This document shows positions 22,238 to 64,000 of a stretch of DNA of 64,000 bases, one piece after another. Both the position numbers and the translations under genes were made by a program. Position 1 is the first letter of the stretch. Every line of letters starts with the position of its first letter. This stretch comes from a virus. The notes under the pieces were generated by a model, which was not told the DNA's origin, made no database searches, and saw only the letters and a program-made list of their open reading frames with translations. The stretch is taken from positions 124,001 through 188,000 of the IMG/VR virus record IMGVR_UViG_3300033388_007730. One strand, 5' to 3'.

Positions 22238-22951
22238 ATGGAAGATACTATTATTATAGGAATGTCTGGTAAGAAACAATCTGGTAAAACTCTTTCTTGC
22301 GAAGATATTCAGAGAAAATATGGTCTATCACAATCTGCCAATTATCCTGTTACAACTATTTCTGCTACAGTAGCTCTATATAGTTTTGCTGATATGCTTA
22401 AACAAAAAGTATGTATGGATACTATGGGATTAACATATGAGCAATGTAATGGAACTAATGAACAAAAGAGCACTCCTACCAAATATAAATGGGAAAATTT
22501 ACCACGACAGATAAGATATGATAATAAATTGGGATCTAAATATGCATCTAATGGAGAAGTGTATCAACACATCTTACCAGAAGGATTTATGACTGCTAGA
22601 GAGATTTTACAGATAGTTGGGACAGACATATTTAGAAAGTATTTTGATGATGATATTTGGGTGAATGCTACTTTCAGAAAAATAGAGAAAGAGAAACCTA
22701 AAGTAGCAATTATTACAGATGCCAGGTTTCCAGGTGAGATCGACGCAATAATGAATAATGGTGGTTGTGTAATTCGTCTGTTAAGAGATGTCTGCGAAAG
22801 TGATTTTCATGAAAGTGAAACAGCATTAGATGATTATGATTTTACAAAGTGGGGAAATAGAGTTTGTATTATTGATAATCAACATATGAGTATAGAAGAA
22901 AAAAATGTTGTTGTATTTAAGTATCTAGAGGGAATAATCAAATGTCAATAA
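22238..22951 (+). CDS. Deoxynucleoside monophosphate kinase (T4 gp1-like)
   Basis: 237 residues. P-loop IGMSGKKQSGKT at the N-terminus, ADMLKQKVC as the helical nucleotide-binding part, MTAREILQIVGTDIFRKYF, VAIITDARFPGEIDAI and a C-terminal HESETALDDYDF. These match phage dNMP kinases that phosphorylate (sometimes modified) dNMPs to dNDPs. It feeds dNTP synthesis along with the dCMP deaminase and ThyX elsewhere in the window. It overlaps the clamp-loader gene by 10 bases. Confidence 0.85.
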   Translation: MEDTIIIGMSGKKQSGKTLSCEDIQRKYGLSQSANYPVTTISATVALYSFADMLKQKVCMDTMGLTYEQCNGTNEQKSTPTKYKWENLPRQIRYDNKLGSKYASNGEVYQHILPEGFMTAREILQIVGTDIFRKYFDDDIWVNATFRKIEKEKPKVAIITDARFPGEIDAIMNNGGCVIRLLRDVCESDFHESETALDDYDFTKWGNRVCIIDNQHMSIEEKNVVVFKYLEGIIKCQ

Positions 22952-25647
22952 ATGATTCATTAGCTGTAAAATATAGACCAGGTAAGTTGGATGATGTTAT
23001 CGGTCAACCAGTCGTTGTTAAAGCATTTAAAAATGCATTCAAATCTGAGACACTTCATCATGCTTATATTTTAGCGGGAAAATATGGTTGTGGGAAATGT
23101 GTAACAGGAGATACTCTTGTTTTAACCGATAAGGGATTGAAGCGTATCGATGATATTGTGCCGAAACAAACGGGTATATCTTCAATTGATGTTAAAATTG
23201 TAGATGAACAGGGAATGGGAAGAACTTTTTTTGGATATTACGAAGAAAATGTAGATACAAAAAGAGTTACAAATAATTTAGGAATAGAGATACAAGGGAC
23301 ATTAGAGCATCCTTTAAGAGTTTTTAATACTAATACTTGTAATATTGAGTGGAGGAATATTGGGGAGATTAAAAATGGAGATATCTTACCTATTTACAGA
23401 AATGAGTATTGTATAAAAAATAAAAAGACAGAGTTATTATCTAAAAGTAATATTTTGTTAGAACTTTATATGATAGACAAAACTAGAAATTTAAAAGATA
23501 AAGTTGTCTGTCCAATTTGTGAAAAAGAGTTTTTGCAGCTAAACACACATTTAAAAACACATGATATATCTCTAAGTAAATTCCGCAAAAAGTATGGAGA
23601 AGATTATCCTATTCATGGAAAGCAGTTTGCCATAAATAATATTAAGAAATCTATAAAATCTGTTACATTGCCAACTCACGTTAATGATGATTTCGCAAGA
23701 TTTATAGGATATTTATTATCAGAGGGTAACATTTATAATAATTCTATTATTTTTACCAATTCTGATAAAATAGTTTTAGACGATTACGAGAGAATTGTTT
23801 CGCGTTTATTCGGAGTTAAAATTGAAAAGAGCAAAGATAGTCGTAAAGAAAATTTGTATAACTATCGTATCCATTCGGCATTGTTAGTATTTTATCTGAA
23901 TAGAATAGGAGGCATTAATCTTGCATTAAAAGAGAAGTATATTCCTAAACAATTATTTAGCTGGGACCATAAATACATTGTTGAATTTTTAAAAGCTTTG
24001 TTTGAGGGGGATGGAGGGATCAACGGTAAAAGAGTATCTTATTATACAATAAGCAAAAGATTATCAAAAGAGATTCAGCAGCTATTGTTAAGTTTTGGGA
24101 TAGTGTCTTATTTAAGAAAAGAAACAAAAAAATATAATAACTGTGTGAGGAAGTTGGGGCATGTTGCTTATTCGGTTAATATTAGTGGTTTAGATTTAAA
24201 GAAATATTATGAAGTAATTAATTTTATTTCAAATATTAAAAAGAATAGTTTGTCATTAATAGCGAATAAAAATGAAACTAATAATGATACAATACCTGGA
24301 ATCGCAAAATTATCTCATAGTATTATTGATACTTTGGGCATTTCAAAAGCAGGTAAAATACAGGTGGGAGACAAATGGATAATCGCCCCGAAAAAGCCTA
24401 GTAATTTTTCTGTTATTGCTAAAAAAAATGGTAATATATCTTATAGTAAATTAAGAGAAATTATTTCATATTTAGAGAGTCTCAAAGATATTGTCTCTCA
24501 TAAGTATAGTGATAAAAAAACTTTTTATGAGTTTATAAGCATTATAGATATATGCAATGAATTGTATGATAAGAAATATTATTTTTCGAGAGTAACTTTT
24601 GTTGAAGGTGGGCTTAATACAAGTGTTTATGATATATGTAAAGATGGAGGAGACAAATCTTTTATAGCTAATGGATACATTAGCCACAATACAACAGTTG
24701 CCAGAATAATAGCTGCTATGGAAAATTGTGAGAAGAATGGAAAAGACCCTTGCGGTGAATGCAAAAATTGCAGAGATATATTGAGTGGTAATTCTATAGA
24801 GGTAATTGAACTTGATGCTGCTAGTCATGGTGGTGTTGATGATATAAGAGCAATACATAAAGATCTCTACCAAATGCCTATCTCTTGTAAAGTGAAATAT
24901 GTTATCATTGATGAGGCTCATTCATTAACTAAACAAAGTGCTGAAGCAGCATTAAAGATGATTGAAGAGCCTCCTGAGTTTGTGAGATTTGTACTATGTA
25001 CAACAGAACCACAATCATTTAAACCAACTATTCATAGCAGGTGTATAACTTGGAAATTCAATAGTGTCAGTTGGATGGAGATGATACCGCTATTAGAAAC
25101 TATTTGTTCAGAAGAGGGTATCTCTTTTGATCGTGAATCTTTATCTATAATTACGAAAGCTTCAAAGGGTTCTGTCAGGAATTCATTACAGAATTTACAG
25201 ACAGTTATGAATTACACTGGAACTAAGAAACTCTCTCCAGAAGAATGTAGGGAAGCATTAGGAGTAGTCAATTCTAAGCTGTATTCTGATTTGATTGATG
25301 GGATAATTGAAGTAAAGATAATGAATTGTTATAAAGTAATTGAAGAGATTTTGAAAGATGGAAAAGATATTGGTTTGATTATAGATGGTGTATATGAATA
25401 TTTGAATAATATTCTTGTGGTAAGAGCCTGCAAGAATGATTTATCACATTTCAATTTCAGTGATGCAGAGATTAAAAAATACATTAGTCAAGCAGCAGGG
25501 ATGGAAGGTGATATGGTTCTTAGAACAATGAATTTGATGAATAATTTAGCTTTTGGTGTTGAATATGGACTTAACCCTCAAGTGTTACTCAATAAATTTG
25601 TTACTGAAGCTATGCTTACTAATAAGAGGTTCATGAAAAAGAGATAA
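22942..25647 (+). CDS. dnaX: DNA polymerase III gamma/tau clamp-loader ATPase with intein
   Basis: 901 codons; removing the 531-residue intein leaves 370 residues. SINDSLAVKYRPGKLDDVIG is the standard DnaX N-terminus. The Walker A GKYGCGK-TT is cut by the intein between Lys and Thr. Then come the four-cysteine zinc module (CEKNGKDPCGECKNC), Walker B VIIDEAHSL and the sensor motif HSRC. The protein would load the beta clamp encoded at 27558 with the delta subunit at 28834. It is short, like a gamma form, with no tau extension. It cannot bind ATP before splicing. Confidence 0.95.
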   Translation: MSINDSLAVKYRPGKLDDVIGQPVVVKAFKNAFKSETLHHAYILAGKYGCGKCVTGDTLVLTDKGLKRIDDIVPKQTGISSIDVKIVDEQGMGRTFFGYYEENVDTKRVTNNLGIEIQGTLEHPLRVFNTNTCNIEWRNIGEIKNGDILPIYRNEYCIKNKKTELLSKSNILLELYMIDKTRNLKDKVVCPICEKEFLQLNTHLKTHDISLSKFRKKYGEDYPIHGKQFAINNIKKSIKSVTLPTHVNDDFARFIGYLLSEGNIYNNSIIFTNSDKIVLDDYERIVSRLFGVKIEKSKDSRKENLYNYRIHSALLVFYLNRIGGINLALKEKYIPKQLFSWDHKYIVEFLKALFEGDGGINGKRVSYYTISKRLSKEIQQLLLSFGIVSYLRKETKKYNNCVRKLGHVAYSVNISGLDLKKYYEVINFISNIKKNSLSLIANKNETNNDTIPGIAKLSHSIIDTLGISKAGKIQVGDKWIIAPKKPSNFSVIAKKNGNISYSKLREIISYLESLKDIVSHKYSDKKTFYEFISIIDICNELYDKKYYFSRVTFVEGGLNTSVYDICKDGGDKSFIANGYISHNTTVARIIAAMENCEKNGKDPCGECKNCRDILSGNSIEVIELDAASHGGVDDIRAIHKDLYQMPISCKVKYVIIDEAHSLTKQSAEAALKMIEEPPEFVRFVLCTTEPQSFKPTIHSRCITWKFNSVSWMEMIPLLETICSEEGISFDRESLSIITKASKGSVRNSLQNLQTVMNYTGTKKLSPEECREALGVVNSKLYSDLIDGIIEVKIMNCYKVIEEILKDGKDIGLIIDGVYEYLNNILVVRACKNDLSHFNFSDAEIKKYISQAAGMEGDMVLRTMNLMNNLAFGVEYGLNPQVLLNKFVTEAMLTNKRFMKKR
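23098..24690 (+). mobile_element. Intein with LAGLIDADG endonuclease and a C2H2-like finger, in the clamp-loader P-loop
   Basis: 531 residues beginning CVTGDTLVLT, block B as TLEH, ending GYISHN, with Thr at +1. LAGLIDADG motifs are FIGYLLSEG and FLKALFEGDG. Between block B and the endonuclease, about residue 190 of the precursor, there is CPICEKEFLQLNTHLKTH, a C2H2-like zinc finger followed by a helical KFRKKYGEDYP. It may be a DNA-recognition module. The insertion site in the Walker A motif of a clamp loader is a known hot spot for inteins. Confidence 0.92.
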
Positions 25648-57195: not shown

Positions 57196-59568
57196 ATGGA
57201 AGATATAAATATCAAATCATTATTACAAGGTGGAATTCGTAAAGATCCAGAAGATGATAGAGATTTTATTTTTACAACACCACATATTCCTGATCATACT
57301 GTCTTGGGAAGTGCTGATTCTATTCCATTAAAAATAGATCATTCTAATAAGATGGGTTCGGTTAAGTTTCAAGGTGCGTTAGGATGCCATGATATTAGAA
57401 CAGAAATACTTACAGAAAAAGGTTGGAAACTATTTAAAGATTTGGATAAAGAAGAAAAAGTAGCTACCGTTAATCCTAATACCCATGAAATTGAATATCA
57501 AGAGCCAATTAATTATTTAGAATATGATTATGAAGGAGATATGTATTATTTTCACCATAAAAGTGGATTAGATGCTATGGTTACTCCTAATCATAAGATG
57601 TATGTCAAGAAATGGGATAATAAAAATATGACATTAAAAGAAGAATTTGAATTCATTGAAGCACAAAATATGGGTTGGTATTCTGGATTGTTGACAAAAA
57701 TTGATTGGGATGGGATCTCTCCCAAAACAATGAAAATGCCAGATGTTGAGATAGGACAAAGAAATGGAAGCAAAAAACAATCTATAAGAATAGGTAAAGA
57801 AATTGATACTACTAATTTCATTACATTTTTGGGATTATATTTAGCAGAGGGCTGTTGTTATCGTCCTGAGGGTAGTGGATCTTACAGAATTGAGATCGCC
57901 GCTAGTGACAATAATGATAGGAAAAATGAAGTTATTGAAATTATTGATGATTTGCCGTATAAATATACTATTTATCATGATAGGATAACAATATGGAATA
58001 AATCTTTATATACATTTCTTAAGCCTTTTGGGAATGTTTATACTAAGTCAGTACCAAGATTTGTTATGGATTTGAATAAAAAGGATATCGCTGCATTTAT
58101 GTATGGTTATTATTTAGGAGATGGATCTTTTCATGATAATGGGGCAAGGACAGGGTATTCGGTATCTGAACATTTAATTGATGATCTTCAAGAACTATCT
58201 TTGAAAATAGGGGTATATAGTAGGAAAAAAAGTAGATCACCTAGAATTGCATATATTAAAGGTAGAAAAATTTTTGGTAAAGAAAGTTATGAACTTCATG
58301 AAAGACAAATAGATACGAAGTTGTCGATAGATAGAAATAAATATTCATCCAAAGTTCCATATAATAATAAAGTATATTGTGTAGAAGTCCCTAATCACAT
58401 ACTTATTACTAGAAGGGGTGGTTGTATTCTAATTTCTGGCAATTCGTGCGTAGCGTTTGCAGCTTGTGCTTTAAAAGAGTGGCAAGAAACAATAGAACAT
58501 GAAAAGGAAGTTTTGGCAGGGAAAAAAGATCATAGAGAAGGTAAAGAATATAATTTGTCTGAACAGTGGATTTATTGGAATTGTAAAAAAATAGATCCAT
58601 GGCCTAATTCTGAAGGAACAAATCTGAGATCAGCTATGAGAGTATTAAATAAGATTGGAGTTCCTACCGAACAAGCTTGGGGTTACACTGATGATAAGGT
58701 GAACATTGGTGAACCTGAAAGCTGGGCATATATGATAGCAAGGTGGAATTTAATAGGGTCTTATTGGAGAATATCAGGATTAGATCAAATTAAAAAAGCA
58801 TTGATCGAGAGTCCTATTATTATTGGGATGGCTTGTTTTAGAGAAATGTATGGTAATTTAGAACATGGTTTAATACCTTATCCTGCTAATCCTGGAGAAG
58901 TAATGTCTCATCATGCTGTTTGTGTTGTTGGTTATGATGAAGAGAAAAAACTCTTAAAATTTAAAAATAGTTGGTCTAAGTTCTGGGGAGATGTTGGTTA
59001 TGGATATATACCTTATGATTATGTAAGAGATTTTGTATGGGATGCGTGGATTGCTAGAGATATTAGTGTAACTCATGAAATGCTTGAAGGTACTAGATTA
59101 TTGGTAGGTGCAGATGTACCAACAGTAATAGAGATAGCTGAGACACCACTTATACAAAAAGATACAGAAGAGAATTTTTCTTTTGTAGGATTTAAGTATC
59201 CTTCTCTTTTAGATACTTTTTCTATTATTAAAGATATTTTTGGAGTTCCAGAAATAGAGATATTTAGAGCTTCTAAAAAGGTGGGAGTTAAATTAGAAGA
59301 TTCTTCATCTATTAACTTATTCTGTAAAAAATATTTTGCTGAGTTTAGAAAAGAATCTGTAAAGAAATATGGATTTGAAGTCGATGTTATTAAAGTGGAT
59401 GATGAATATCCAATTATTGGTATTTGTTTGTGTGAAAAAGAAATTAGTGATAAATTTGATGAAAATCAGATAAAGATAGAAGATGTAATGAAAAAAGTGG
59501 TTGGCATGAGAGATATATTGGCTCTTGGCAAAGATATAATAATTTACAATGGTGTGAGAAAATATTAA
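57196..59568 (+). CDS. Papain-like (C1A) cysteine protease with intein at the catalytic site
   Basis: 790 codons; after removal of the 353-residue intein, 437 remain. The mature junction reads QGALG-SCVAFA, where Cys is the catalytic residue. Late in the sequence come SHHAVCVVGYD, with the catalytic His, and KFKNSWSKFWGDVGYGYIPY, with the Asn. These are diagnostic of family C1A. The region before the junction (RKDPEDDRDFIF) resembles the propeptide-like N-terminus of phage and bacterial C1A proteases. The intein separates the first part of the active-site loop from the nucleophile, so the enzyme is active only after splicing. Confidence 0.93.
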   Translation: MEDINIKSLLQGGIRKDPEDDRDFIFTTPHIPDHTVLGSADSIPLKIDHSNKMGSVKFQGALGCHDIRTEILTEKGWKLFKDLDKEEKVATVNPNTHEIEYQEPINYLEYDYEGDMYYFHHKSGLDAMVTPNHKMYVKKWDNKNMTLKEEFEFIEAQNMGWYSGLLTKIDWDGISPKTMKMPDVEIGQRNGSKKQSIRIGKEIDTTNFITFLGLYLAEGCCYRPEGSGSYRIEIAASDNNDRKNEVIEIIDDLPYKYTIYHDRITIWNKSLYTFLKPFGNVYTKSVPRFVMDLNKKDIAAFMYGYYLGDGSFHDNGARTGYSVSEHLIDDLQELSLKIGVYSRKKSRSPRIAYIKGRKIFGKESYELHERQIDTKLSIDRNKYSSKVPYNNKVYCVEVPNHILITRRGGCILISGNSCVAFAACALKEWQETIEHEKEVLAGKKDHREGKEYNLSEQWIYWNCKKIDPWPNSEGTNLRSAMRVLNKIGVPTEQAWGYTDDKVNIGEPESWAYMIARWNLIGSYWRISGLDQIKKALIESPIIIGMACFREMYGNLEHGLIPYPANPGEVMSHHAVCVVGYDEEKKLLKFKNSWSKFWGDVGYGYIPYDYVRDFVWDAWIARDISVTHEMLEGTRLLVGADVPTVIEIAETPLIQKDTEENFSFVGFKYPSLLDTFSIIKDIFGVPEIEIFRASKKVGVKLEDSSSINLFCKKYFAEFRKESVKKYGFEVDVIKVDDEYPIIGICLCEKEISDKFDENQIKIEDVMKKVVGMRDILALGKDIIIYNGVRKY
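57385..58443 (+). mobile_element. Intein with LAGLIDADG endonuclease (in cysteine protease)
   Basis: 353 residues from Cys (CHDIRTEILT) to GN (CILISGN), with Ser at +1. The penultimate residue is Gly instead of His. Block B is VTPNH, LAGLIDADG motifs are FLGLYLAEG and FMYGYYLGDG. The intein ends one residue before the catalytic Cys of the protease. Inserted at the start of the most conserved loop of the family. Confidence 0.92.
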
Positions 59569-59629: not shown

Positions 59630-60011
59630 GGGGACGACAGGATTGACTGGATAGGTAGAAAATTGAATTGCATGTCAGAGATGGTAGTTGGCTCTGTAAA
59701 AAATCTACTAAAAAGTTTAATTGCAAACAGTTACGCAATGGCTGCTTAAGCAGCAGGAGGGTGGCATAGCCTACCTTCCACCGATGTCTGTAAGGGAGTT
59801 TCCTGCTGGAACTTACAGGCTAATTTAGGCAGGATAGCCGAGAAACATTTTCTCATGGTGTGATTGGCGACAAGTCCCGATAAGGGGATGAGATAGCGAA
59901 AGTTAGGGTTAGTCCGTTGTTCCTAACATAGTGAAAAAAAAACAACGGACTATACATGTAGATGTTTGATTTGAAATATCACAGGACGAGGCTTCAATGC
60001 CTCCGTCTCCA
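59630..60011 (+). ncRNA. ssrA: tmRNA (transfer-messenger RNA)
   Basis: 382 bases. The 5' end GGGGACG pairs with CGTCTCC at 60004-60010 to form a 7-bp acceptor stem with G3-U70, the alanine identity signal, and discriminator A. A T-arm-like hairpin (GAGGC/GCCTC, TTCAAT loop of six) precedes it. The tag frame starts at 59723: GCA AAC AGT TAC GCA ATG GCT GCT TAA, giving ANSYAMAA. The stop lies in a GCTGCTTAAGCAGC hairpin, as in bacterial tmRNAs. The 3' end is not CCA (ATTA follows). It rescues stalled ribosomes and tags nascent proteins for proteolysis. Confidence 0.95.
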
Positions 60012-60041
60012 TTATGATGAAGTTTTTTTAAGGATGTAATA

Positions 60042-63609: not shown

Positions 63610-64000
63610 TTATAATAAGGTTATATTATATTTTCTATCCAGATGAATTGTGCTATTTTGATAGAGCCAATTCGTGAGTTTGTGGCATTGTTTATTGCCA
63701 CCAATAGTTAATCCTTTAGCTTTGCCTTTATTTTGAAGTTTTTTATATTTTATATTTAGTTCTTTGAAAAATAAATACTGTAGAGAATTAAGAAATTTTT
63801 CTGTTCCGACAATAGTGATTTGAAGGTTTCTGCGATTTCCATTTTTTCGGTAGCATATACAGCCATCTCCATCGATATAACCTCTGATAAAGTGATGTTG
63901 AAGATTATAATCTATATTGGGGAATTTTAGGGTGAGGCTTTTTCTTGGAGTGCAACCTAATTTTATGAGATCGTTGCATAGTTTATTAGAATAATATCTT
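63610..64000 (-). CDS. LAGLIDADG homing endonuclease, N-terminus outside window
   Basis: The minus strand is open from the right edge to a TAA at 63610-63612. HHFIRGYIDGDGCICYRKNG contains the second LAGLIDADG dodecapeptide, followed by LQITIVGTEKFLNSLQYLFF. The first motif must lie beyond base 64000. Its codon use (more CTA, ATC, AAC) differs from the neighbours, consistent with a mobile gene. It could be free-standing or in an intron or intein. Confidence 0.75.
   Translation of the reverse strand, partial: RYYSNKLCNDLIKLGCTPRKSLTLKFPNIDYNLQHHFIRGYIDGDGCICYRKNGNRRNLQITIVGTEKFLNSLQYLFFKELNIKYKKLQNKGKAKGLTIGGNKQCHKLTNWLYQNSTIHLDRKYNITLL

Follow-up and report, generated by a model that had tools for sequence, protein, structure and literature searches.

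A predicted class 1 intein of a widespread phage family next to the catalytic cysteine of a papain-like protease

The window, a stretch of 64,000 nucleotides that is part of a 219,188-base IMG/VR virus record, encodes a papain-like cysteine protease of a jumbo-phage lineage whose most conserved stretch is occupied by an intein, one residue before the catalytic cysteine. The best explanation, to which we give a probability of about 85%, is a homing element with ordinary class 1 splicing that leaves the precursor inactive as a by-product. The element type and the location in an active site are familiar, and insertion into the active centre is the rule among mycobacteriophage inteins (PMC5050341); the exact insertion site is new. 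Full-text searches of openly licensed papers found no earlier case of an intein at the catalytic cysteine of a papain-family enzyme, and our work adds this site to the enzyme active centres known to be occupied by inteins.

The intein and its host protease

The precursor is encoded by a single reading frame that has no internal stop (Table 1). The boundaries that a sequence-only reading had proposed for the intein proved exact to the base: The translated insert begins with CHDIRTEILTEKGWK and ends with VYCVEVPNHILITRRGGCILISGN, the last letters being ISGN, it lies between Gly63 and Ser417, which is followed by Cys418, and its excision joins VKFQGALG to SCVAFAACAL, with Q-G-A-L-G/S-C-V-A-F at the junction. 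Pfam assigns the insert to LAGLIDADG_3 (PF14528, E 2e-6, above cut-off), there are weak matches to Intein_splicing and intein_Nterm (Pfam, NCBIfam), and a profile built from 48 related inteins matches the solved LAGLIDADG inteins PI-PkoII, V-ATPase inteins and PI-SceI. With two LAGLIDADG motifs and their acidic residues located between blocks B and F, the element qualifies as a full-length intein. Chance can be excluded because the same intein is present at the same site and codon boundary in a second record (L002), homologues with an empty site align across it without a gap, and the profiles match. A sequencing artefact is ruled out by the two independent records, the open frame and purifying selection.

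Table 1. Features of the protease gene, its intein and the neighbouring tmRNA gene (window positions unless a locus is named)
Feature	Position	Strand	Basis
Precursor ORF, 790 aa: N-extein, intein and C-extein (protease)	57196..59568	+	translation
N-extein, residues 1-63, ending VKFQGALG; contains papain Gln19 equivalent and D..D.RDF stretch common to 3ois	57196..57384	+	
Papain Gln19 equivalent, Q59	57370-57372	+	
Intein, residues 64-416, 353 aa, Cys1 ... Gly-Asn	57385..58443	+	71% identical intein at same site in L002
Cys1, predicted N-terminal splicing nucleophile	57385..57387	+	invariant, 48/48 aligned inteins
Block B TPNH: Thr B:7 and His B:10	57583..57594	+	each 48/48
LAGLIDADG motif 1 LGLYLAEG, acidic E155	57829..57852	+	sequence, alignment
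LAGLIDADG motif 2 YGYYLGDG, acidic D246	58102..58125	+	alignment, PF14528
Block F VYCVEVPNHILITR; F:4 = Cys332 (58378-58380); block-F His = H338	58372..58413	+	
Block G CILISGN; penultimate Gly352 and terminal Asn353 at 58438-58443	58423..58443	+	
Ser417, predicted +1 extein nucleophile, papain Ser24 equivalent	58444..58446	+	
C-extein: remainder of papain-like (C1) protease and C-terminal extension	58444..59565	+	PF00112
Cys418, catalytic, papain Cys25 equivalent	58447..58449	+	invariant in protease homologue alignment
His573, catalytic, papain His159 equivalent	58912..58914	+	homologue alignment
Asn591 in KNSW, catalytic, papain Asn175 equivalent	58966..58968	+	homologue alignment
C-terminal extension, ~154 aa	59104..59565	+	missing from L002 and L005 orthologues
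tmRNA	59630-60014; L005 7233-7580; L009 4573-4921; L002 5369-5730		Rfam RF00023

The identity of the host as a papain-like protease, also part of the earlier reading, is borne out by several comparisons. The flanks of the insert match Peptidase_C1 (PF00112; E 2e-11, above cut-off), the top PDB match of the spliced protein is the papain-like cysteine protease 3ois (E 2e-20), and a profile built from 36 viral homologues without an intein has an E-value of 3e-47 against 3ois and of 2e-24 against cathepsin K. We take 3ois to be xylellain; its PDB title gives 'Cysteine protease' alone. The homologue alignment shows no variation at Q105, C111 and H264 and very little at N282; these are the equivalents of papain Gln19, Cys25, His159 and Asn175 and correspond to Q59, C418, H573 and N591 of the window protease. 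The profile match together with the four catalytic equivalents identifies the predicted protein as a member of the papain-like (C1) family, probably one of xylellain type. It shares with 3ois the Gln/Cys/His/Asn machinery, the QGxxGSC motif and an N-terminal D..D.RDF stretch, whereas 3ois has no intein and is distant in sequence, and the window protease is a phage gene with a C-terminal extension that has no family match in Pfam or PHROG. The possibility of a dead protease is ruled out by the intact catalytic residues and by selection.

The proposed G-S-C splice junction with the cysteine as the catalytic nucleophile also holds, as GSC of the spliced protease aligns with QGRIGSC of 3ois in the profile alignment and its cysteine with papain Cys25. 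In the intein-free homologues, the motif G-[S/T/A/C]-C crosses the insertion site without a gap, and the catalytic cysteine is preceded by Ser in 29 of the 38 aligned rows that cover the region, by Thr in 6, by Ala in 2 and by Cys in 1, two of the 38 rows being the spliced carriers. According to this alignment, papain positions 23 and 24 flank the intein, and the enzyme's own Ser24 would provide the +1 nucleophile. The active-site segment is thus interrupted one residue ahead of the nucleophile, and the earlier claim of a disrupted active site agrees with papain anatomy: The unspliced precursor is probably inactive because the oxyanion-hole Gln and the catalytic helix come to lie on opposite sides of the insert.

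Occupied and empty alleles

When viral contigs were scanned with protease alignments, 44 and 45 loci were obtained, most of them overlapping, and a scan of prokaryote genome contigs added 3 protease loci. Among the contigs scanned, the window and L002 are the only intein carriers, and about 40 distinct homologues are intein-free. The gene order around the protease is shared by the window, L002, L005, L008 and L009, with a dCMP deaminase upstream and, in some of them, a methylase, sigma-like genes and NUDIX, and these five form one clade on the protease tree (support 97/93). The two carriers do not form a sister pair: L002 has L005 (100/99) as its sister, and the window falls in with L008 and L009, all three of these partners being intein-free. 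No bootstrap tree explains the presence and absence of the intein with fewer than two changes.

Between the window and L002, the intein is 71% identical, whereas the C-extein reaches 59% and the neighbouring dCMP deaminase 52%. For the intein, dN is 0.22 and dS 1.38 (NG86), for its endonuclease part 0.23 and 2.3, and for the C-extein 0.36 and 1.19 (NG86), the latter giving a dN/dS of about 0.3; with dS near saturation, these values indicate constraint and cannot date a transfer. Both the LAGLIDADG domain and the C-extein are under purifying selection. Taken together, the patchy spread, the higher conservation of the intein and the purifying selection are the signature of a mobile and functioning homing intein, known so far from two carriers, and the history of the element is one of horizontal gain or repeated loss. 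The higher conservation of the intein could stem from constraint instead of transfer. As syntenic phages offer both occupied and empty alleles, homing, loss, and effects on fitness or timing can be tested directly.

Some further features of these loci deserve mention. The DNA methylase gene next to the protease has an occupied allele in L002 (3-1460, with a GN/T intein) and an empty one in L005 (2892-4034). Just 3' of the protease, four phage records contain a tmRNA gene (Rfam RF00023, Table 1), the one of the window having been missed by ARAGORN; read by eye, the tags are ANSYAMAA, GNNYAMAA, GNSYAMAA and GNSFSMAA. Relatives of the protease (L335, L336, L337) were also present in contigs assigned to MAGs of Lokiarchaeota, Woesearchaeota and Prolixibacteraceae. 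These may be viral since L336, which encodes an extra N-terminal domain, adjoins an apparent tail sheath gene.

Class assignment and the Gly-Asn ending

The window intein has all obligatory features of a full-length class 1 intein, i. e. Cys1, a TxxH block B (TPNH) and the C-terminal Asn353 followed by Ser at +1, and it is predicted to splice. The penultimate His, which is common but not obligatory in class 1 (PMC7664689, PMC5050341), is replaced by Gly352. An assignment to class 3 was rejected: The WCT motif is absent, with Met at B:12, Cys at F:4 and Ser at G:5, and Cys1 is present. With the class 3 (WCT) inteins the element shares the Cys at F:4 and the association with phages, but it differs from them in having Cys1, in lacking Trp at B:12 and Thr at G:5, and in carrying Gly rather than His at G:6.

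We sampled viral inteins by N-terminal block-B DNA patterns alone and read their C-termini afterwards; the pattern LVTPNHxM gave inteins, and YD[YF]xGDM mostly matched an unrelated phage protein and only few inteins. Among the 56 sampled inteins with a clear C-terminus, the penultimate residue is Gly in 55 and His in one, a proportion that describes one family favoured by the block-B sampling and not all viral inteins, and 52 of the 56 have Cys at F:4. In an alignment of 48 rows, Cys1, Thr B:7 and His B:10 are present throughout (48/48), the terminal Asn and the penultimate Gly in 47 rows each, and the F:4 Cys in 46; the block-F His is kept in only 18. Judged by its Cys1, its TPNHxM block B, its F:4 Cys and its Gly-Asn ending, the predicted intein of the window belongs to this widespread phage family.

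The family extends to named phages. Cys1 and Gly-Asn are common to the window intein and the class 1 inteins with penultimate Gly of the Bethlehem gp51 recombination directionality factor (RDF), SP3 NrdA, the BeanWater nucleotidyltransferase, the BlueCrab methylase and the GMA6 terminase. Moreover, the inteins of Salmonella phage SP3 and Mycobacterium phages BeanWater and BlueCrab have TPNHxM or TPNHxV in block B, and all four sequences from these three phages and Gordonia phage GMA6 have Cys at F:4, so that Cys1, F:4 Cys and Gly-Asn occur together in inteins of unrelated enzymes; the family signs are also found in inteins of Lak-A1 and EBPR siphovirus 2. Insertion into an active site is a further trait that the window intein shares with the phage penultimate-Gly inteins (PMC5050341). 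Unlike these, it resides in a papain-like protease and has an altered RRNG motif: The Asn is kept in 45 of the 48 aligned inteins, but the motif reads RRGG in the window and RREG in L002, a change that could affect the splicing rate.

The canonical class 1 inteins of the same record follow the same splicing route and have the same Hint blocks, but they combine Asp at F:4 with His-Asn where the protease intein has Cys and Gly. This applies to the DnaX and sugar-dehydratase inteins in the window and to the split DnaE intein that the record encodes outside the window, suggesting that F:4 and the penultimate residue vary together. The two in the window are full-length inteins (495-2504 and 22942-25647) and interrupt a GDP-mannose-dehydratase-like enzyme and the Walker A motif (GK/TT) of a DnaX clamp-loader subunit. 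The split DnaE intein is encoded by two adjacent genes (L353 2175-3224 and 3253-4653; G000:C1:68674-69723 and 69752-71152): In the first, FANFG is followed by CLAANTPILTEKGW and later a stop, and the second, 28 bases on, begins with MMNNCELF and runs through NIVVHN/CHAAGVVVSD.

Predicted splicing and its alternatives

If the window intein splices by the class 1 route, Cys1 would attack the carbonyl of Gly63, the N-extein would be transferred to Ser417, Asn416 would cyclise, and the exteins would be joined as ...LGSCVAF..., restoring the Gln/Cys/His/Asn machinery. Splicing is probably prompt, and the LAGLIDADG endonuclease probably mediates homing. The choice of the site then probably reflects homing into conserved, indispensable codons where imprecise loss would destroy the protease, and the inactivity of the precursor would be a mere by-product.

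The sequence-only reading had taken Gly-Asn in place of His-Asn as a hint of slow or conditional splicing, and one could go further and regard the intein as impaired, leaving the protease largely inactive or cut at one of the two junctions. A penultimate His indeed normally helps Asn cyclisation (PMC5050341, PMC7664689), and the RRNG motif is altered. However, inteins without this His are still able to splice (PMC7664689), and the Bethlehem gp51 intein with its penultimate Gly was mostly spliced at time zero in a rapid and nearly complete reaction that is slowed by changing the Gly to His (Kelley et al., PMC5050341). Since penultimate Gly is moreover the norm in the family, the Gly-Asn ending is no evidence of conditional splicing. 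Gly-Asn is also conserved in both protease inteins, and the retained catalytic residues and the purifying selection on the C-extein are unlike what is seen in a dead gene; impaired splicing is thus the least likely of the readings considered here. The combination of Gly-Asn with F:4 Cys is a coherent intein type that is common in phages, and the missing His should therefore not be taken as a mark of crippled or regulated splicing. The F:4 Cys itself raises the question of a class 3-like variant in which this residue rather than Cys1, though retained, attacks first. The frequency of F:4 Cys in the alignment and the use of F:4 as the nucleophile by class 3 inteins (PMC4031507, PMC7664689) are in line with this idea, but the Trp and Thr of the WCT motif are replaced, an invariant Cys1 is not expected of a dispensable residue, and only one residue is more common than Cys at F:4 among known inteins (PMC4031507). 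We consider such a variant very unlikely.

It had also been claimed that the intein acts as a built-in switch for protease activation. In such an intein-gated zymogen, conditional splicing in response to redox, metal, temperature or a phage-specific state would time the activation of the protease in infection, and an insertion that disrupts the active-site segment is what this idea needs. Position alone does not make a switch because any active-site intein leaves its precursor inactive. A switch that is needed would be expected wherever the host gene occurs, but the intein is missing from nearly all homologues, intein-free proteases predominate even within the same syntenic lineage, and its Cys1, F:4 Cys and Gly-Asn, being found in unrelated enzymes, are not tuned to this protease. 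A search for redox- or zinc-sensing features found no CXXC in the intein and no Cys in the seven N-extein residues that precede the intein; the intein cysteines conserved between the two carriers are Cys1, Cys332 at F:4 and, beyond the active site, only the pair Cys157-Cys158 of the endonuclease. We have thus found no positive evidence for a regulatory switch. The idea keeps a small probability since a disulfide could form between Cys1 and Cys332, which are both present, and disulfide-bonded precursor conformers have been reported for the Bethlehem gp51 intein (PMC5050341). Slightly less probable again is the specific course of events in which inactive precursor accumulates, arrested by the Cys1-Cys332 disulfide or otherwise, until splicing is set free by a change in the course of infection and turns the protease on. 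An ordinary homing intein remains the reading that we prefer.

Two other elements were noticed in the course of this work. At L004 (5716-6870), a small intein without an obvious endonuclease lies in a prohead-protease-like gene, where it adjoins an NHPSD motif that looks like the catalytic His region of the encoded protein, and its C-terminus may be either SN/Y or Y/C. Finally, a stand-alone LAGLIDADG reading frame on the minus strand (63610-63999), 168 aa in full, crosses the end of the window.
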